From NCBI GenBank assembly GCA_003987775.1, contig RXJD01000061.1, positions 45,553 to 109,552 of the forward strand: a stretch of 64,000 bases of DNA, given 5' to 3'. This document shows positions 34,183 through 40,083 of the stretch, piece by piece. Source of the DNA: Mycobacterium sp. (lineage in GTDB: Bacteria; Actinomycetota; Actinomycetes; Mycobacteriales; Mycobacteriaceae). How positions within the stretch are numbered: position 1 is the first letter of the stretch; each line of letters opens with the position of its first letter. A program made the position numbers and the translations under genes. The notes beneath the pieces are model-generated. The model made no database searches. It saw only the letters and a list, made by a program, of their open reading frames with translations, and was not told the origin of the DNA.

Positions 34183-35058
34183 ATGACGGGTGTGGTCGTC
34201 ACTCTGGACGGCGAAGTTCTCGACTCGGGGACCCCATTGCTGCATGCCGACGACCTGGCGGCGGTGCGGGGCGACGGAGTCTTCGAGACGCTGCTGGTGC
34301 GTGAGGGCAGGGCATGCCTGATCGAGTCGCACCTGCAGCGACTGACCCAGTCGGCGAAGTTGATGGACCTGCCCGAACCGGACCTGGACCGGTGGCGGCG
34401 GGCGATCGACGCGGCGACCGGGCAGTGGCTGAGCATCTCCGACGACGAGGCCGCGATGCGCCTGGTGTACAGCCGCGGCCGGGAGAGCGCGCCGGCGGCG
34501 TCGACCACCTACGTGATGGTCAACCCGGTGCCGGATCGGGTGAACGCGGTGCGGCGCGACGGTGTTTCGGCGATCACGCTCGATCGCGGATTGCCGGCGG
34601 GCGGCATCGACACCATGCCCTGGCTGCTGGCCGGCGCCAAGACGCTGTCGTATGCCGTGAACATGGCCGTCCTGCGCCATGCCGCCCGACAGGGCGCGGG
34701 CGACGTCATCTTCGTCAGCACCGACGGCTACATCCTGGAAGGGCCCCGCTCCACAGTGGTCATCGCTGTGGAGGGCGAGGACGGCCGCCCCTGCCTGCTC
34801 ACCCCGCCACCGTGGTATCCGATCCTGCGGGGTACCACCCAGCAGGCACTCTTCGAAGTGGCACGCGACCGCGGGTACGACTGCGACTACCGTGCGCTGC
34901 GACCCGCCGATCTCGTCGCGGCACAGGGCATCTGGCTGGTGTCGAGCATGACGCTGGCCGCGCGCGTGCACACCCTCGATGGCCGCCTGCTACCTAGGGT
35001 CCCATTCGCCGATACCTTCGCCGAGCTGGTCGACGCCGCGATCGTCATTGATCGCTGA
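34183..35058 (+). CDS. pabC: Aminodeoxychorismate lyase (PLP fold type IV)
   Basis: A 291-residue branched-chain aminotransferase-like enzyme (Rv0812) making p-aminobenzoate for folate. Family signs: DDLAAVRGDGVFETLLV, GAKTLSYAVNMAVLRHA with the PLP Lys, and EGPRSTVVIAV near the phosphate-binding turn. Some relatives are D-amino acid aminotransferases, so activity is inferred from family and neighbour ygfZ. Confidence 0.88.
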   Translation: MTGVVVTLDGEVLDSGTPLLHADDLAAVRGDGVFETLLVREGRACLIESHLQRLTQSAKLMDLPEPDLDRWRRAIDAATGQWLSISDDEAAMRLVYSRGRESAPAASTTYVMVNPVPDRVNAVRRDGVSAITLDRGLPAGGIDTMPWLLAGAKTLSYAVNMAVLRHAARQGAGDVIFVSTDGYILEGPRSTVVIAVEGEDGRPCLLTPPPWYPILRGTTQQALFEVARDRGYDCDYRALRPADLVAAQGIWLVSSMTLAARVHTLDGRLLPRVPFADTFAELVDAAIVIDR

Positions 35059-35322: not shown

Positions 35323-36843
35323 CTACTTGTTCGCCCTCGCCGCGATCTGATCGGCGAGTTTGGCGCCGCCGTCGGTGATGTCGTTTCCGCACGCCTGAAC
35401 CTCGATGACCAGGTCGCCCGCCGCGCTGAGGGCATGCTGGCAGGTGCGGCTGTTGTTGTCGGTCTCCGCACGCGTCATCGTGATCTTCGGCGCGGCGCCG
35501 TTGACTTCGCCGAAGCTCCACTCGGTGCTCTTGCTCGGGCCGGTGAACGTGACGGTCTTGTTGGCGCACGCCCGCCACTTCCCGGCGGACGACTCGACGA
35601 ATGCGCGAGCCTTCTCCGCCGAGGGGAACTTCGCGACCGCCTCGACCACCCGGTGGGCGTCACCGGAGGACTGAACGACCTGGCTGTGGATCGCGGTCGG
35701 GTCGTGCGGCCGGTACACCGACTCCTGGAACGGTTCGAACGCCGACAGACATTCCGGATCGGACAACGTGCCCTGCGGCGCCCGCAGCTGGTCGCTGCGG
35801 GCGCTTTCCTTCATGTTGGGGTCGCCCAGCACGTTCCCGATGTCGGCGGCGCCAAGCAGGACGGACTCGGTTTCGGCCGGAGCGGCAACCCCGTTGGACA
35901 CACCGTTGGATTCCCCACTCGGCTTCGACGCCGCCGGCTTGCGGCTGTTTCCGCCGCCGGTGGCGAACACCACGATCAACACGATCGCCACCACAGCGGC
36001 CAGCGCCGCGCCGCCGATGATGAGCAGCTTCTTGCTCGACTGCCCGCTGCCGGTGCCGGCCGCAGAGACCGCCTGACCGGCGGCGGGGCGGGGCTGCGGT
36101 GCGGCCGCAGGAGCGACAGCGGCGGCCGCCTCCGGGGCCTTTGCCGCCGGTTCCTTGGCTGGCGGCGCTTCTCCTGGGCCACCGTCCTTGGCCTCGATCT
36201 CGGCCAGCACATTGTCGATTTCGGTCCGGGTGCGGTAGGTGACGTCGTGGCGCATGCGCAGCATCCGCAGCAGCTGTGCGATGTCGCTGCGCGCGCTGGG
36301 GTCGTCGCCGTCCTCGTCGAGCCCCGATCGCAGCTCCACCAGCAGCTGCAACTGCGTCTGAGGAGTCAGCTCTTTCTCCGACAGGGTGTTGCCCAGCCGC
36401 ATGATGTAGCCGAACGGCACCGGCGGCTCTTCGGGCAGCGGCGACGGAAGCGGGGCGGCCTTCTGGATCATGGCGTGGATCGCGGTGACCAGCTGGATGC
36501 CGGCGTCCACCGTGGGGTTCTGGTAGTCGATGATCTGCAGCGTCGAGACGGGATTGACCCGGACGCTGTCGACGGGGCCCACCTGGACGGGCAGGATCGG
36601 GCGATTGAGAGCCTGGGCGTAGCGCAGCTCGGCCTGGCTCGGCTTGGACTGCAGCCAGTTGTTGGACAGCGCGACGATGAACACATCACAGGAGCGGATC
36701 TGCTCCAGGATCGCGTTCCACCAGGCGTCCCCACCACCGAGTTCCTGGTCGAACCACACCTTTTGCTGAGCGCGCTTCAACGCGGTCGTCAGCGCATCCA
36801 GCGACGTCCTGTCCTGGCTCGAATAGCTGATGAATATGGCCAC
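35323..36843 (-). CDS. TIR domain - transmembrane - PknH-type sensor domain protein
   Basis: 506 residues. Residues 1-~130 are a TIR domain: IFISYSSQDR strand A, WFDQELGGGDAWWNAI loop, SCDVFIVALSNNWLQS, and Glu72 in KPSQAELRYA where NAD-cleaving TIRs have their catalytic Glu. Residues ~145-220 are helical; 221-270 Ala/Pro-rich linker; 273-294 one transmembrane helix (KKLLIIGGAALAAVVAIVL). Residues ~320-506 resemble the extracytoplasmic PknH_C sensor, with four Cys (365, 426, 468, 485) fitting two disulfides. The TIR domain should be cytoplasmic and the sensor outside. GTG 36843 follows GAGGAG. Downstream of the RyR gene, same strand. Confidence 0.88.
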   Translation of the reverse strand: MAIFISYSSQDRTSLDALTTALKRAQQKVWFDQELGGGDAWWNAILEQIRSCDVFIVALSNNWLQSKPSQAELRYAQALNRPILPVQVGPVDSVRVNPVSTLQIIDYQNPTVDAGIQLVTAIHAMIQKAAPLPSPLPEEPPVPFGYIMRLGNTLSEKELTPQTQLQLLVELRSGLDEDGDDPSARSDIAQLLRMLRMRHDVTYRTRTEIDNVLAEIEAKDGGPGEAPPAKEPAAKAPEAAAAVAPAAAPQPRPAAGQAVSAAGTGSGQSSKKLLIIGGAALAAVVAIVLIVVFATGGGNSRKPAASKPSGESNGVSNGVAAPAETESVLLGAADIGNVLGDPNMKESARSDQLRAPQGTLSDPECLSAFEPFQESVYRPHDPTAIHSQVVQSSGDAHRVVEAVAKFPSAEKARAFVESSAGKWRACANKTVTFTGPSKSTEWSFGEVNGAAPKITMTRAETDNNSRTCQHALSAAGDLVIEVQACGNDITDGGAKLADQIAARANK

Positions 36844-36964
36844 GGAAGTCTCCTCAATTGAGGGCAGGGGGAAGCTGATACGGCGAAACCGTCATGCGAC
36901 GGTAGCGCATGGTACTGGCCGCAGCAATCGGCTCTGGCAAACCAGCTGCGGCGTGCCGCGGCGA

Positions 36965-39334
36965 TCAGTCGGCGGCGGGGACATGCGCCTCGTCCGGGGG
37001 GTGGAACTCGGCGTAGCGCTGCGTGAATTCATGGCCCGGCACCGGCCACTGCTCGCCTTCGGATCCTCGCACCACCCAGTCGCCGTCGGCCGCATTCGTG
37101 GGGCCCTCCAGCGTGTTGATCGACTCGCCCGGTTGTGCCGGACGGGCCTGGACTCGCCCTTTCCGGCGCCAGAGCCCGTCGCCGGCGGATTCGTAGGTCG
37201 CGTGGAAGATGTCGTCGCGCACCGACCAGGTCTTGCCGTCCGAGCGCACCTCCCAGTCGCCGGCGTCGGCGTGCATGGTGTGCCCGGAATCCGACGTCCA
37301 CGTCCAGGGTGCGGTGCGTTGCTCGGCGGACACCGTCCCGACCCGTGTGAAGGTCCGCCACAGTGGGCGGGACCGGTAGCCGAGTTGGCGCAGGCTCCAC
37401 AGTGTGGCCGCCAGGCTGCGCACCGCAGCGCTGAGCAGGTCCGGGTTGTTTTCGACGGTGGACCAGTCCACCAGCTTGTCGTGGATCTTGCGGGAGTCGT
37501 CGCGGGGCGTGCCGTACTTCCAGCCGTTGCGGCGGTAGTACCGGCACCAGTCCTCGTGCTCGGCCTGCGCCATGGCCAGCGCCGAGTACCGGTCGAAACC
37601 CATCAGCGCGAGTTGCTCCAGCGGCGGCGCGTCGGCCATGTCGCGCCCGGACAGTTGGGCCGGCGGGCTGCCCCAGGTGTTCCAGGTGTGCCCTGCGACC
37701 TGTTCGACCATCCACAACGCGTTGCGTACCTGTCGCCTGTTGGAGCCACGGTAGAACTCGTCGAGCTCGATCCACGGCACCGAGGCGGGGCCACGCGGCC
37801 AACTGGGATCGATGGTGGCGACGTACCGTTCGTGGATCAGCCGGGCGGCCCGTTCCCAGGCATCCTGGACCTGACCTTCACGGCTGTCCAGCACCAGGGA
37901 GTAGGACTGCAGCATGCCGACCACCTGGATGGAGTCGTCGGCGATGCTGGTGTTCAGATCCGAGGTGTAGACCGGCATCTCCGGGAAGCGCGCGGCCAGC
38001 CTGGTGCCGGTGGTCGCGGTATGGGTGTCGACCAGGATCACGGCGCTGGTCGTGGGGTCGGTGTCGCCGATCAGGCGCAGGATGGTGGGGATCGTCGGGC
38101 CCTCGGACACCGCGTCGATCGACGGTCCGTCGGAGGCGAATCCTGCTTGCTGACGGTAGAACTCGTGATCCTTCAGGTACTCCTCGGCGTCGCGTTCCAC
38201 CAGCGTCAGCGACGGCAGCGGCACCGCACCCGGGGGCGTGTAGAAGTCACGTTCCAGCGCGCGACGGGTCAGGTCCGCACATAGCGCCAACGTCAATTGT
38301 GAAGTGCCGCAGACGAACACACGCTTGGTGCGGCCGGTCGCGATGATCCCGTCCAACAACCGGCTCGCCGTGACCTCGTACTTGCCGACCACATCGGCCG
38401 CCCATCGGGTGTCGGATCCGCCGAACTGCTGGGCACGCCAGGCTTCGGCCAGCCAGGGGTCGTCGATGCGCACGATCAGCGGCAGCCGCCTCTTGTGGGC
38501 GACTTCCGCGAGCCGGCGGCTGATCAGGTCCAGCCACAGCAGGTTGATGGCCGGGTCGGGCGCCATCAGATAGAGCCGGCTGAGGTGGCGCCACAACCGC
38601 AGCGACACCAGCGTGGCCGGTGTGTTGAAGTCGACGAGCACCACACGGGCGCCCATCCGGCGGACCCGCTGCACCCGGTCGTCGTTGGCGCTGGTGATGA
38701 CGACCAGGGTGCCGCGCCGGTCCAGCGTGCGGGCGACGCCGCTGATCATCGACTCGGTGTCGTCGTCGACCCCCACGATCGCGGTGACGGAATCGGCGAA
38801 GTTGGCCCGCAGCCGGTCGACCTGAGACCGGAAAACTCCGACCACCACACCGCCCAGGCCGGTGAAGATCGCCGAAACCGCTGCCATTCGGGCCAATTCG
38901 AGACCGACCGGTGTCGGGCTGGGGCAGATGTGTCCGCCCAGCGAGTAGTCGCCGCTGCTGCCTTTGATCAGCTGGGCGGTCAGCATCAGCGGGGTGAAGA
39001 CCGCCGGATGGTTCTCGTCGTGACAGTTCCAGTACGAGCTCAGTCCGAGAATCGCGCTCATGGTGATCAGCACCGCAATCACGGTGAACGAAACCCCCAC
39101 CAGGCGGTGGCTGGTGTTGGACCGGAAGGTCATTACACACACCGTGACCAGGACGGCGACCACGATCGCGGTCGTCGACATCGATCCCGGCCGGCCGAAC
39201 CAGGCCAGCCCGGACGGCAGCAGGTCGAGAATCGCGGGCTGAAAGGCCACCGCCGCCAGGTACCCGATCAACAGGACGGCGAGGATGGACATGCTCCAGC
39301 GCACCGGGGGCGGGGCGATTCTCTTCTGGCCCAT
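36965..39334 (-). CDS. Membrane protein with RCK/TrkA_N-like domains, RyR domain and PGDYG-like repeats
   Basis: 789 residues. Four hydrophobic segments at about 15-37, 53-70, 78-98 and 146-168, with a Cys/His/Gly-rich loop between 3 and 4. Two Rossmann-like units follow (SVTAIVGVDDDTESM from ~182; KRVFVCGTSQLTLALC from ~337), like the RCK domains of TrkA and CASTOR/POLLUX channels. Residues ~495-655 form an RyR region: IHERYVATID, EFYRGSNRRQ, AEHEDWCRYYRRNGWKYG, RDDSRKIHDKLVDW. Two copies of a GDW(E/V)VR...W.V....F...Y unit close the protein (691-714, 751-774), PGDYG-like. ATG 39334 follows GCGAGG. No enzyme site seen; a ligand-gated channel or transporter is plausible. Confidence 0.87.
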   Translation of the reverse strand: MGQKRIAPPPVRWSMSILAVLLIGYLAAVAFQPAILDLLPSGLAWFGRPGSMSTTAIVVAVLVTVCVMTFRSNTSHRLVGVSFTVIAVLITMSAILGLSSYWNCHDENHPAVFTPLMLTAQLIKGSSGDYSLGGHICPSPTPVGLELARMAAVSAIFTGLGGVVVGVFRSQVDRLRANFADSVTAIVGVDDDTESMISGVARTLDRRGTLVVITSANDDRVQRVRRMGARVVLVDFNTPATLVSLRLWRHLSRLYLMAPDPAINLLWLDLISRRLAEVAHKRRLPLIVRIDDPWLAEAWRAQQFGGSDTRWAADVVGKYEVTASRLLDGIIATGRTKRVFVCGTSQLTLALCADLTRRALERDFYTPPGAVPLPSLTLVERDAEEYLKDHEFYRQQAGFASDGPSIDAVSEGPTIPTILRLIGDTDPTTSAVILVDTHTATTGTRLAARFPEMPVYTSDLNTSIADDSIQVVGMLQSYSLVLDSREGQVQDAWERAARLIHERYVATIDPSWPRGPASVPWIELDEFYRGSNRRQVRNALWMVEQVAGHTWNTWGSPPAQLSGRDMADAPPLEQLALMGFDRYSALAMAQAEHEDWCRYYRRNGWKYGTPRDDSRKIHDKLVDWSTVENNPDLLSAAVRSLAATLWSLRQLGYRSRPLWRTFTRVGTVSAEQRTAPWTWTSDSGHTMHADAGDWEVRSDGKTWSVRDDIFHATYESAGDGLWRRKGRVQARPAQPGESINTLEGPTNAADGDWVVRGSEGEQWPVPGHEFTQRYAEFHPPDEAHVPAAD

Positions 39335-39438: not shown

Positions 39439-40083
39439 TCAGCCGACGAAACGGGACAGTCGTGCCGACAGATGCGGGACCAGGCCGCCGTCGGCGTCCA
39501 CCCGTTCTTCGACGTAGGCGAGATCGCCGCCCTCGACGATGCCGTAGAGCCGTTTGGCGCCGCCGACCAGCACGCCGGACCGGCTCCTGGCCAACGCGTC
39601 GGTGACGAGTTCCCACGACGACTGGTTGCGCGGGCGGCCGTAGAACAGCTCGACGTAGCCAGCCGAGTGCGCCAGCAGCAGCTCGATGGCCTGGGATTCG
39701 CTCGGGTCGTCCGGATCGGCGACGAATCGCCAGAAGCCCGTCTCACGCAACGCCGGCTGGTGGTACTCACCGGCGTCGTCGAGGCGCCAGGACCGGGCTT
39801 CCCAGTTCAGGTAGTCACCGCCGTCGTGGGAGACCACGATCTGCTGGCCGAACCGGTAGTCGCCGTCGTGAGCACGACCCTCGCCCTCGCCGCGCCACAC
39901 GCCCACCAGCGGCAGCAGCGCCAGCAAGGCGTCGTTGAGGTTGGCGCCTTCCCGCAGGTTCGCGGTGTCGGCAGGCACCGGCAGGTCGTCGTACGCGGGG
40001 ATATTCCGGGTAGCGGTCAGTTTCGCCCGCTCCGCCGCCTGCGACAGTTCGTCCGCGGCGTCCTCACCCTCGGTGGAGGTCAC
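39439..40083 (-). CDS. Nitrobindin (FABP-like haem protein, Rv0813c homologue)
   Basis: A 214-residue protein whose C-terminal ~165 residues form the ten-stranded nitrobindin barrel: [34 protein letters not shown], and the late [34 protein letters not shown] with the haem region. Binds ferric haem and can handle peroxynitrite/NO. GTG 40083 overlaps the stop of a 32-residue membrane peptide gene by 4 bp, so translation is coupled. Confidence 0.9.

Follow-up and report, generated by a model that had tools for sequence, protein, structure and literature searches.

Among the closest described systems are the RyR-domain proteins of phages. According to the available part of a preprint of May 2026 (PMC13232231), they bind the cyclic ADP-ribose isomers 2'/3'cADPR, which the founder also cleaves. 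RyDEP is described there as an RyR-domain glycosidase with the catalytic dyad H75 and D117 and with H75, W78, H100 and D117 as key residues; binding was seen for six of the eight phage homologues tested, and cleavage for none besides the founder. Its authors also state that tools for an easy study of Thoeris in mycobacteria are missing. A further described family is DUF4062, a TIR-like NADase (NAD, nicotinamide adenine dinucleotide) reported in the available part of PMC13174449 to make ADP-ribose (ADPR). Here we present a two-gene locus of Mycobacterium sp., located in a stretch of 64,000 nucleotides (the window; contig RXJD01000061.1 of assembly GCA_003987775.1, positions 45,553 to 109,552). 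One gene encodes a TIR protein with a transmembrane (TM) segment and a PknH_C domain, the other a predicted ion channel of the RCK type capped by RyR repeats.

The two genes probably form a TIR-to-channel signalling unit of Thoeris-like kind, in which an ADPR-type signal made by the TIR domain gates the RCK channel via the RyR repeats. The membrane-anchored TIR protein, under control of its PknH_C ectodomain, would turn NAD+ into an ADP-ribose-type nucleotide, either linear ADPR or a 2'/3'-cyclic isomer. This nucleotide would bind the tandem RyR repeats capping the RCK gating ring and open a tetrameric channel of CASTOR/GsuK-like plan, and the ion flux would arrest or kill the cell, the likeliest role being defence or a reaction to envelope stress. 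The architecture, the conserved partner-swapping pairing, the kept Glu of the TIR domain and the kept H, W and H of the channel are read from sequence and predicted fold; catalysis, the identity of the nucleotide, its binding, the direction of gating, ion selectivity, the tetramer, the topology and the biological role are what we infer. An earlier note on this DNA, made from the sequence alone, had already suggested that a TIR product gates the RyR/RCK protein; the pairing, the kept Glu, the linkage of RyR with TIR genes and the RyR domains reported to bind TIR products (PMC13232231, available part) speak for this, with gating itself presumed.

The channel was matched at an E-value of 1e-10 or better in 58 of 148 sampled genomes of the genus, some of these matches being partial or degenerate (e.g. 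G074, G114 and G120). Among 79 named loci, drawn from the best 80 of 105 candidates, a TIR gene lies within 2.5 kb of the channel in 72, in several orientations and architectures; co-occurrence across genomes, which the earlier note had named as a check, was thus found. The partner is a TIR-TM-PknH_C protein in 53 loci (49 downstream and co-directional, four divergent), a label given by sequence similarity, with the PknH_C part present in 52 of them and only the linker in L105. In 15 loci it is a TIR-STAND-WD40 protein (10 convergent, four divergent, one co-directional), and the remainder are one TIR-WD40 protein and three others, one of which (L103) is a fragment. Three TIR frames are short, with 286 aa (L071), 239 aa (L074) and 215 aa (L089), and the TIR and PknH_C parts of L074 and L089 are not in a single frame. 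On the RyR tree the fewest changes of partner type number ten; the tree is a quick one with long-branch warnings, and the count depends on the labels: 'other' was treated as a separate type, L099 and L113 received the TIR-STAND-WD40 label manually on account of contigs that stop within that gene, and rows with no TIR within 2.5 kb did not enter the count. The TIR-channel pairing is real.

RyR and TIR genes are linked beyond this channel family as well. Ten loci with relatives of the TIR protein were sampled away from the window-type channel family, and in five of them (L189-L193) the TIR relative adjoins another RyR channel of mycobacteria, of 2TM-TrkA_N-RyR type; each of the two partners is thus exchanged. 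This second channel has 576-629 aa and two hydrophobic TM stretches, with TrkA_N and RyR above the cut-offs in the four that were scanned. An RyR neighbour was not found in the other five loci, of which L196 lies on a short contig and L198 has a truncated TIR frame. In a sample of 396 genomes of the phylum the channel profile matches seven (six in the genus, and G155 over the PGDYG part only), and RyR domains occur in 20. Loci outside the family comprised 16 from this sample and 40 from two classes, with TIR and DUF4062 genes called by our own profiles within 4 kb of the RyR gene; they took in every one of the 25 loci listed for the class of G470 and, outside the genus, 20 of the 38 own-class places listed. 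A TIR or DUF4062 gene was present at this distance in 17 of the 25 loci of the class of G470 (27 TIR_2 and nine DUF4062 matches in 23 genomes), in five of ten from other families of the phylum sample (L135, L138 and L139 being near-identical) and, weakly, in three of the 20 own-class loci, as well as at the genus locus L184 and on a Rhodococcus plasmid. The link of RyR domains with nucleotide-based systems, cited in the earlier note, is supported in the form of linkage to TIR and TIR-like NADase genes. Locus L145 copies the layout of the window, a TrkA_N-RyR channel gene overlapping a TIR-TM-Septum_form gene.

In the window both genes are on the minus strand and co-directional, at 35323-36843 and 36965-39334 with a spacer of 121 nt (check of open reading frames, ORFs). 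The two-gene observation of the earlier note, an adjacent co-directional pair at 35323..39334, is confirmed. The features are as follows (AF2, AlphaFold2; pLDDT, predicted local distance difference test).

36965..39334, minus strand: gene of the predicted RyR-capped RCK channel, 789 aa, ATG at 39334, stop at 36965-36967; AF2 model with mean pLDDT 83.6
39242..39310, minus strand: TM1, model residues 9-31 (hydropathy 17-35 and AF2 model)
39119..39181, minus strand: TM2, residues 52-72 (hydropathy 52-70 and AF2 model)
39032..39103, minus strand: TM3, presumed outer pore helix, residues 78-101 (hydropathy 78-96 and AF2 model)
38966..38998, minus strand: predicted re-entrant pore helix between TM3 and TM4, residues 113-123 (AF2 model)
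38798..38908, minus strand: TM4, long inner helix, residues 143-179 (hydropathy 150-168 and AF2 model)
38330..38794, minus strand: RCK1-like Rossmann domain, about residues 181-335, boundary approximate (fold searches)
37865..38329, minus strand: RCK2-like Rossmann domain, about residues 336-490, boundary approximate (fold searches)
37691..37864, minus strand: RyR repeat 1, about residues 491-548, with H501, Y504 and N532 (repeat analysis and alignment)
37370..37591, minus strand: RyR repeat 2, about residues 582-655, with H593, W596 and H618 (Pfam RyR 2.3e-7, PDB profile matches)
37007..37357, minus strand: C-terminal PGDYG-like tail of two similar beta units, residues 660-776 (Pfam and AF2 model)
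35323..36843, minus strand: TIR-TM-PknH_C gene, 506 aa (ORF and Pfam)
36499..36843, minus strand: TIR domain, residues 1-115 (Pfam TIR_2 3.6e-21)
36628-36630, minus strand: putative catalytic Glu72 of the TIR domain (alignment of TIR domains)
35968..36024, minus strand: TM segment of the TIR protein, residues 274-292 (hydropathy)
35335..35883, minus strand: PknH_C domain, presumed extracytoplasmic, residues 321-503 (Pfam 6.9e-45)

The TIR-TM-PknH_C gene starts with GTG, with GAGGAG ahead of the start, and its rows above bear out the TIR-TM-PknH-type sensor described before. For the channel gene the mechanical ORF extends to 39616, and the ATG at 39334 was chosen. The pair is flanked by an aminotransferase class IV gene (Aminotran_4, 34183-35058, plus strand) and a THAP4 heme-binding gene (39439-40083, minus strand), which we take to be Rv0812 and Rv0813c. 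The closest named relatives, strains of Mycobacterium gordonae and one Mycobacterium metagenome-assembled genome, stand at 94-96 percent. Only one of 72,556 plasmid records holds a homologue at an E-value of 1e-5; a mobile-cassette origin was not adopted in view of this count and of the stable placement of the slow-grower locus. In G074 and G114, genomes of 3.3 Mb, remnants of both genes lie near each other, and the pair seems decayed there because most of these remnants hold internal stops.

All 92 TIR domains that cover the site retain the catalytic Glu; the alignment has 95 rows, three of them gapped there, taken from the window and the named loci, some of the latter with unnamed duplicates. 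Loss of the Glu in most homologues, a doubt raised beforehand, is not the case. All 50 PknH_C-type, all 15 STAND-WD40-type and all three WD40-type proteins (named set plus window), 68 of 68 partners of these classes, carry a TM-like hydrophobic stretch after the TIR domain, as do three of nine proteins of other type, several of these nine being short frames. The short TIR protein at L036:7919-8845 has no TM-like segment at the threshold used, despite a match to the PADLOC TIR-TM model. The same TIR-TM plan occurs in distant genomes (TIR-TM-Septum_form in L145, TIR-TM-PKD-PD40 in L142). Because a TM-like segment follows the TIR domain in all 68, the PknH_C or WD40 part would be outside the cell, which lends some support to the previously suggested outside signal. 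Judged from the protein sequences, the TIR enzyme would usually be tethered beside the membrane channel, with the variable domain beyond the membrane. STAND-WD40 partners as cytosolic sensors were considered and dropped, the TM-like segment preceding the WD40 part. Alternatively, the TIR domain could be a non-enzymatic scaffold that brings the PknH_C sensor to a channel serving as a housekeeping osmotic or ion device, in line with TIR domains described as scaffolds in animal signalling (PMC8494770, available part) and with the stably placed slow-grower locus. We regard this as improbable: the Glu is kept throughout, and the partner is swapped for TIR-STAND-WD40, short TIR and DUF4062 genes that have no sensor domain in common with PknH_C.

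Fold searches with the channel model matched the RCK gating proteins TrkA, Slo1, GsuK and CASTOR and the Repeat12 domain of RyR, and the predicted structure has a pore helix and inner helix followed by a tandem RCK fold. The four TM segments noted earlier are supported by hydropathy, and presumably follow a CASTOR-like plan; the two RCK-like domains are plain from the fold though weak in sequence, and a pore helix is added. The pore loop is bounded by the invariant C104 and C137; in the channel-family alignment these and G125 are each present in 45 of 45 sequences, and K124 in 44. The RyR region, recognized before, consists of two tandem repeats; RyR (PF02026) reaches 31.4 bits against a cut-off of 27.4 (32.8 bits in the genome search), and PGDYG, at 1.2e-5 and 26.1 bits, stays just below its cut-off of 27. 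Repeat 1 keeps H501 and N532 in 45 of 45 and Y504 in 42 of 45. The TrkA_N cut-off is passed by L140, L145 and the second mycobacterial RyR channel family. L033 and L034 encode the PGDYG-like tail in a gene of its own, located beyond the TIR gene as seen from the channel. PADLOC and NCBIfam gave no family for the RyR/RCK protein at an E-value of 0.01, and no paper containing the word PGDYG was found in a search of the PubMed Central (PMC) literature.

The channel retains H, W and H, three of the four RyDEP key residues. The equivalents of H75, W78 and H100 are H593 (44 of 45), W596 (45 of 45) and H618 (45 of 45) in the channel family, and in a more divergent set they are kept in 11, 13 and 13 of 13. 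In the column aligned with D117 the window has S, and among the 45 sequences N occurs in 24, D in nine, E in three and H in three; a three-residue gap nearby makes the column uncertain. The RyR repeats of the channel may thus bind and not cleave, tentatively, given the gap. In a phage search with the channel RyR, RyDEP appeared only at an E-value of 0.5, a similarity of single sequences that is not significant; the link between channel and RyDEP therefore rests on profiles. DyoEdafos and Aegeus are mycobacteriophages. Aegeus gp81 (L129:1318-1728) shares 81 percent identity with DyoEdafos RyDEP and has all four of H, W, H and D; Aegeus gene 81 and Baudelaire gene 81 are annotated as hypothetical proteins of phages of M. 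chelonae. DyoEdafos gp78 and Aegeus gp81 share their place, with a ribose-phosphate enzyme gene on one side and a nicotinamide or nicotinate transferase gene on the other. It is improbable that the RyR repeats are an off-switch that hydrolyses the TIR product, as phage RyDEP does, and that the RCK domains gate. The His of the reported H75/D117 dyad is kept in 44 of 45, but the Asp is mostly changed at the uncertain column, repeat 1 has N532 in all 45, an argument that is tentative because of the gap, and most phage homologues, according to the available part of PMC13232231, bind without the non-founders cleaving.

Several points weigh against the signalling unit. Three loci lacking a TIR gene (L085, L087 and L094) have at least 7 kb available on both sides; of the others, L079 lies on a contig of 9.6 kb, and L099, L112 and L113 are cut by contig ends, L099 and L113 inside a STAND-WD40 gene. 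The TIR relatives L194, L195 and L197 have no RyR neighbour, and family f110 holds up to 43 TIR_2 per genome, yet none of its 13 sampled RyR loci has a TIR gene within 4 kb. In channel residues 98-149 no TVGYG-type K+ selectivity filter was found, TrkA_N scores 0.016 and 15.9 bits, below the cut-off of 23.8, and H593 is replaced by Trp in two of the 13 more divergent sequences. The ligand may differ between loci, because DUF4062 is reported to make ADPR and not the cyclic isomer (PMC13174449, available part). Both flanking genes of the window are present in 42 of the 79 loci, which are therefore largely one inherited site. This last point would suit neutral linkage, the two genes being neighbours by descent in one lineage with no joint function, an explanation that was already disfavoured and that we hold to be very improbable: the other loci differ in site, orientation and partner type, and linked genes turn up again with another channel family and in further families of the phylum. 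As TIR_2 is scarce (two in the genome of the window, 74 in 24 relatives), chance adjacency comes to about 0.5 percent per locus, a rough estimate.

Ten of the 79 loci also hold a gene for a patatin phospholipase that resembles phospholipase effectors in PADLOC, nine of them with TIR-STAND-WD40 and the tenth, L113, cut inside its STAND-WD40 gene; the phospholipase is possibly a second membrane-directed output. Patatin genes by the RyR channel are seen at L033:6419-7570 and in L092, L095, L096, L102, L108, L113 and L115-L118. These genes bear on a further explanation, in which the TIR itself kills by depleting NAD+ while the channel acts as a brake that reads NAD+ or ADPR through its RCK and RyR domains and tunes the membrane potential to limit or reset the damage. 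The kept TIR Glu, RCK proteins solved with NAD, ADP or ATP-gamma-S (titles of 4gx2, 4gx1 and 4j9v) and partners from the DUF4062 family, reported in the available part of PMC13174449 to make ADPR, would fit; however, the receptor domain is fused to the gating ring and kept with several TIR types, and the patatin gene looks like an added output. We consider the brake unlikely, though less so than the scaffold or the off-switch, and retain the signalling unit.

Further arrangements were observed. At L079:412-2151 a 2TM-TrkA_N-RyR gene lies directly upstream of a window-type channel gene, two RyR channels in tandem; L087, its sister on the tree, shows no TIR in the 7-8 kb retrieved at each side. 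The DUF4062 genes at L036:10099-13500 and L127:2965-6603 adjoin or lie near RyR channels with a TIR close as well, two NADase-type partners with one receptor. At L144:8214-10922 a RelA/SpoT - TPR-S - SLOG (TRPM, weak) - RyR protein is divergent from a second RyR protein; to judge by its domains, the RyR repeats there would sit on a nucleotide-synthesising, conflict-type protein. L147 (6929-7285) and L167 have stand-alone RyR frames of about 110-120 aa that overlap TIR frames and resemble the single-repeat phage RyDEP, and the TIR protein of L147 also has a weak PNP_UDP_1 match. In family f110, G757, G774, G870 and G935 are examples with many TIR_2 and non-adjacent RyR proteins.

Mycobacteria and some other actinobacteria thus keep a predicted immune-type TIR enzyme beside a predicted ion channel whose tip is the nucleotide-binding domain known from animal ryanodine receptors, which suggests gating by a small molecule from the enzyme. 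If this is true, an ion channel joins the outputs of TIR signalling, a plausible host receptor is named for the signals that the mycobacteriophage RyDEP is reported to destroy, and the old question of cyclic ADP-ribose and the ryanodine receptor becomes testable with small bacterial proteins. In a wider sense, which we put forward as possible though short of an even chance, prokaryotic RyR repeats would be a general receptor module for the products of TIR and DUF4062 enzymes and would cap outputs of many kinds: at least two families of RCK channels, weakly kinase-like proteins, RelA/SpoT-SLOG proteins and stand-alone single repeats. TIR immunity would then have nucleotide-gated ion flux as an output in its own right, animal ryanodine receptors would be heirs of a bacterial receptor for TIR signals, and mycobacteriophage RyDEPs would be decoys derived from the receptor fold of the host. 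The PMC literature searched yielded no description of a TIR-RyR channel pair in bacteria; by this measure, what is new is a channel that would serve as receptor and that is linked to TIR genes consistently and with swapped partners. A comparative paper of 2015 on nucleotide-centric conflict systems reportedly may already place RyR domains there, so the general idea was perhaps predicted earlier.

Compared with Thoeris, the locus has in common a TIR protein with the catalytic Glu, which matches the PADLOC ThsB models weakly (best 2.2e-5), beside a second protein with a domain whose family is known for binding TIR products. It differs in the nature of this second protein, an RyR-capped RCK channel to which no PADLOC family corresponds; since none of the PADLOC ThsA models matches the second gene at an E-value of 0.01, we do not classify the pair as Thoeris. 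Swarozyc/DUF4062 is similar in that DUF4062 genes replace TIR genes beside RyR proteins in several loci, but its members are described, in the available part of PMC13174449, as NADases acting with the phage portal, and the words RyR, ryanodine and TrkA are absent from the main text of that paper. With animal ryanodine receptors there is a fold match to the Repeat12 domain, whereas the channel core here is of the RCK type and not that of the RyR/IP3R channel. GsuK, MthK, Slo1 and CASTOR/DMI1 share, by predicted structure, the pore helix, the long inner helix and the two RCK domains; unlike these RCK-gated channels, the present one has no TVGYG-type filter, an RyR and PGDYG-like C-terminus and an invariant Cys pair in the pore loop. 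Phage RyDEP is a single-repeat homodimer that cleaves or sequesters the signal, whereas the channel is encoded by the host, with two tandem repeats and a mostly changed D117 position; its RyR nevertheless has the H, W and H ligand residues, with identical H-x-x-W and 22-residue W-to-H spacing.

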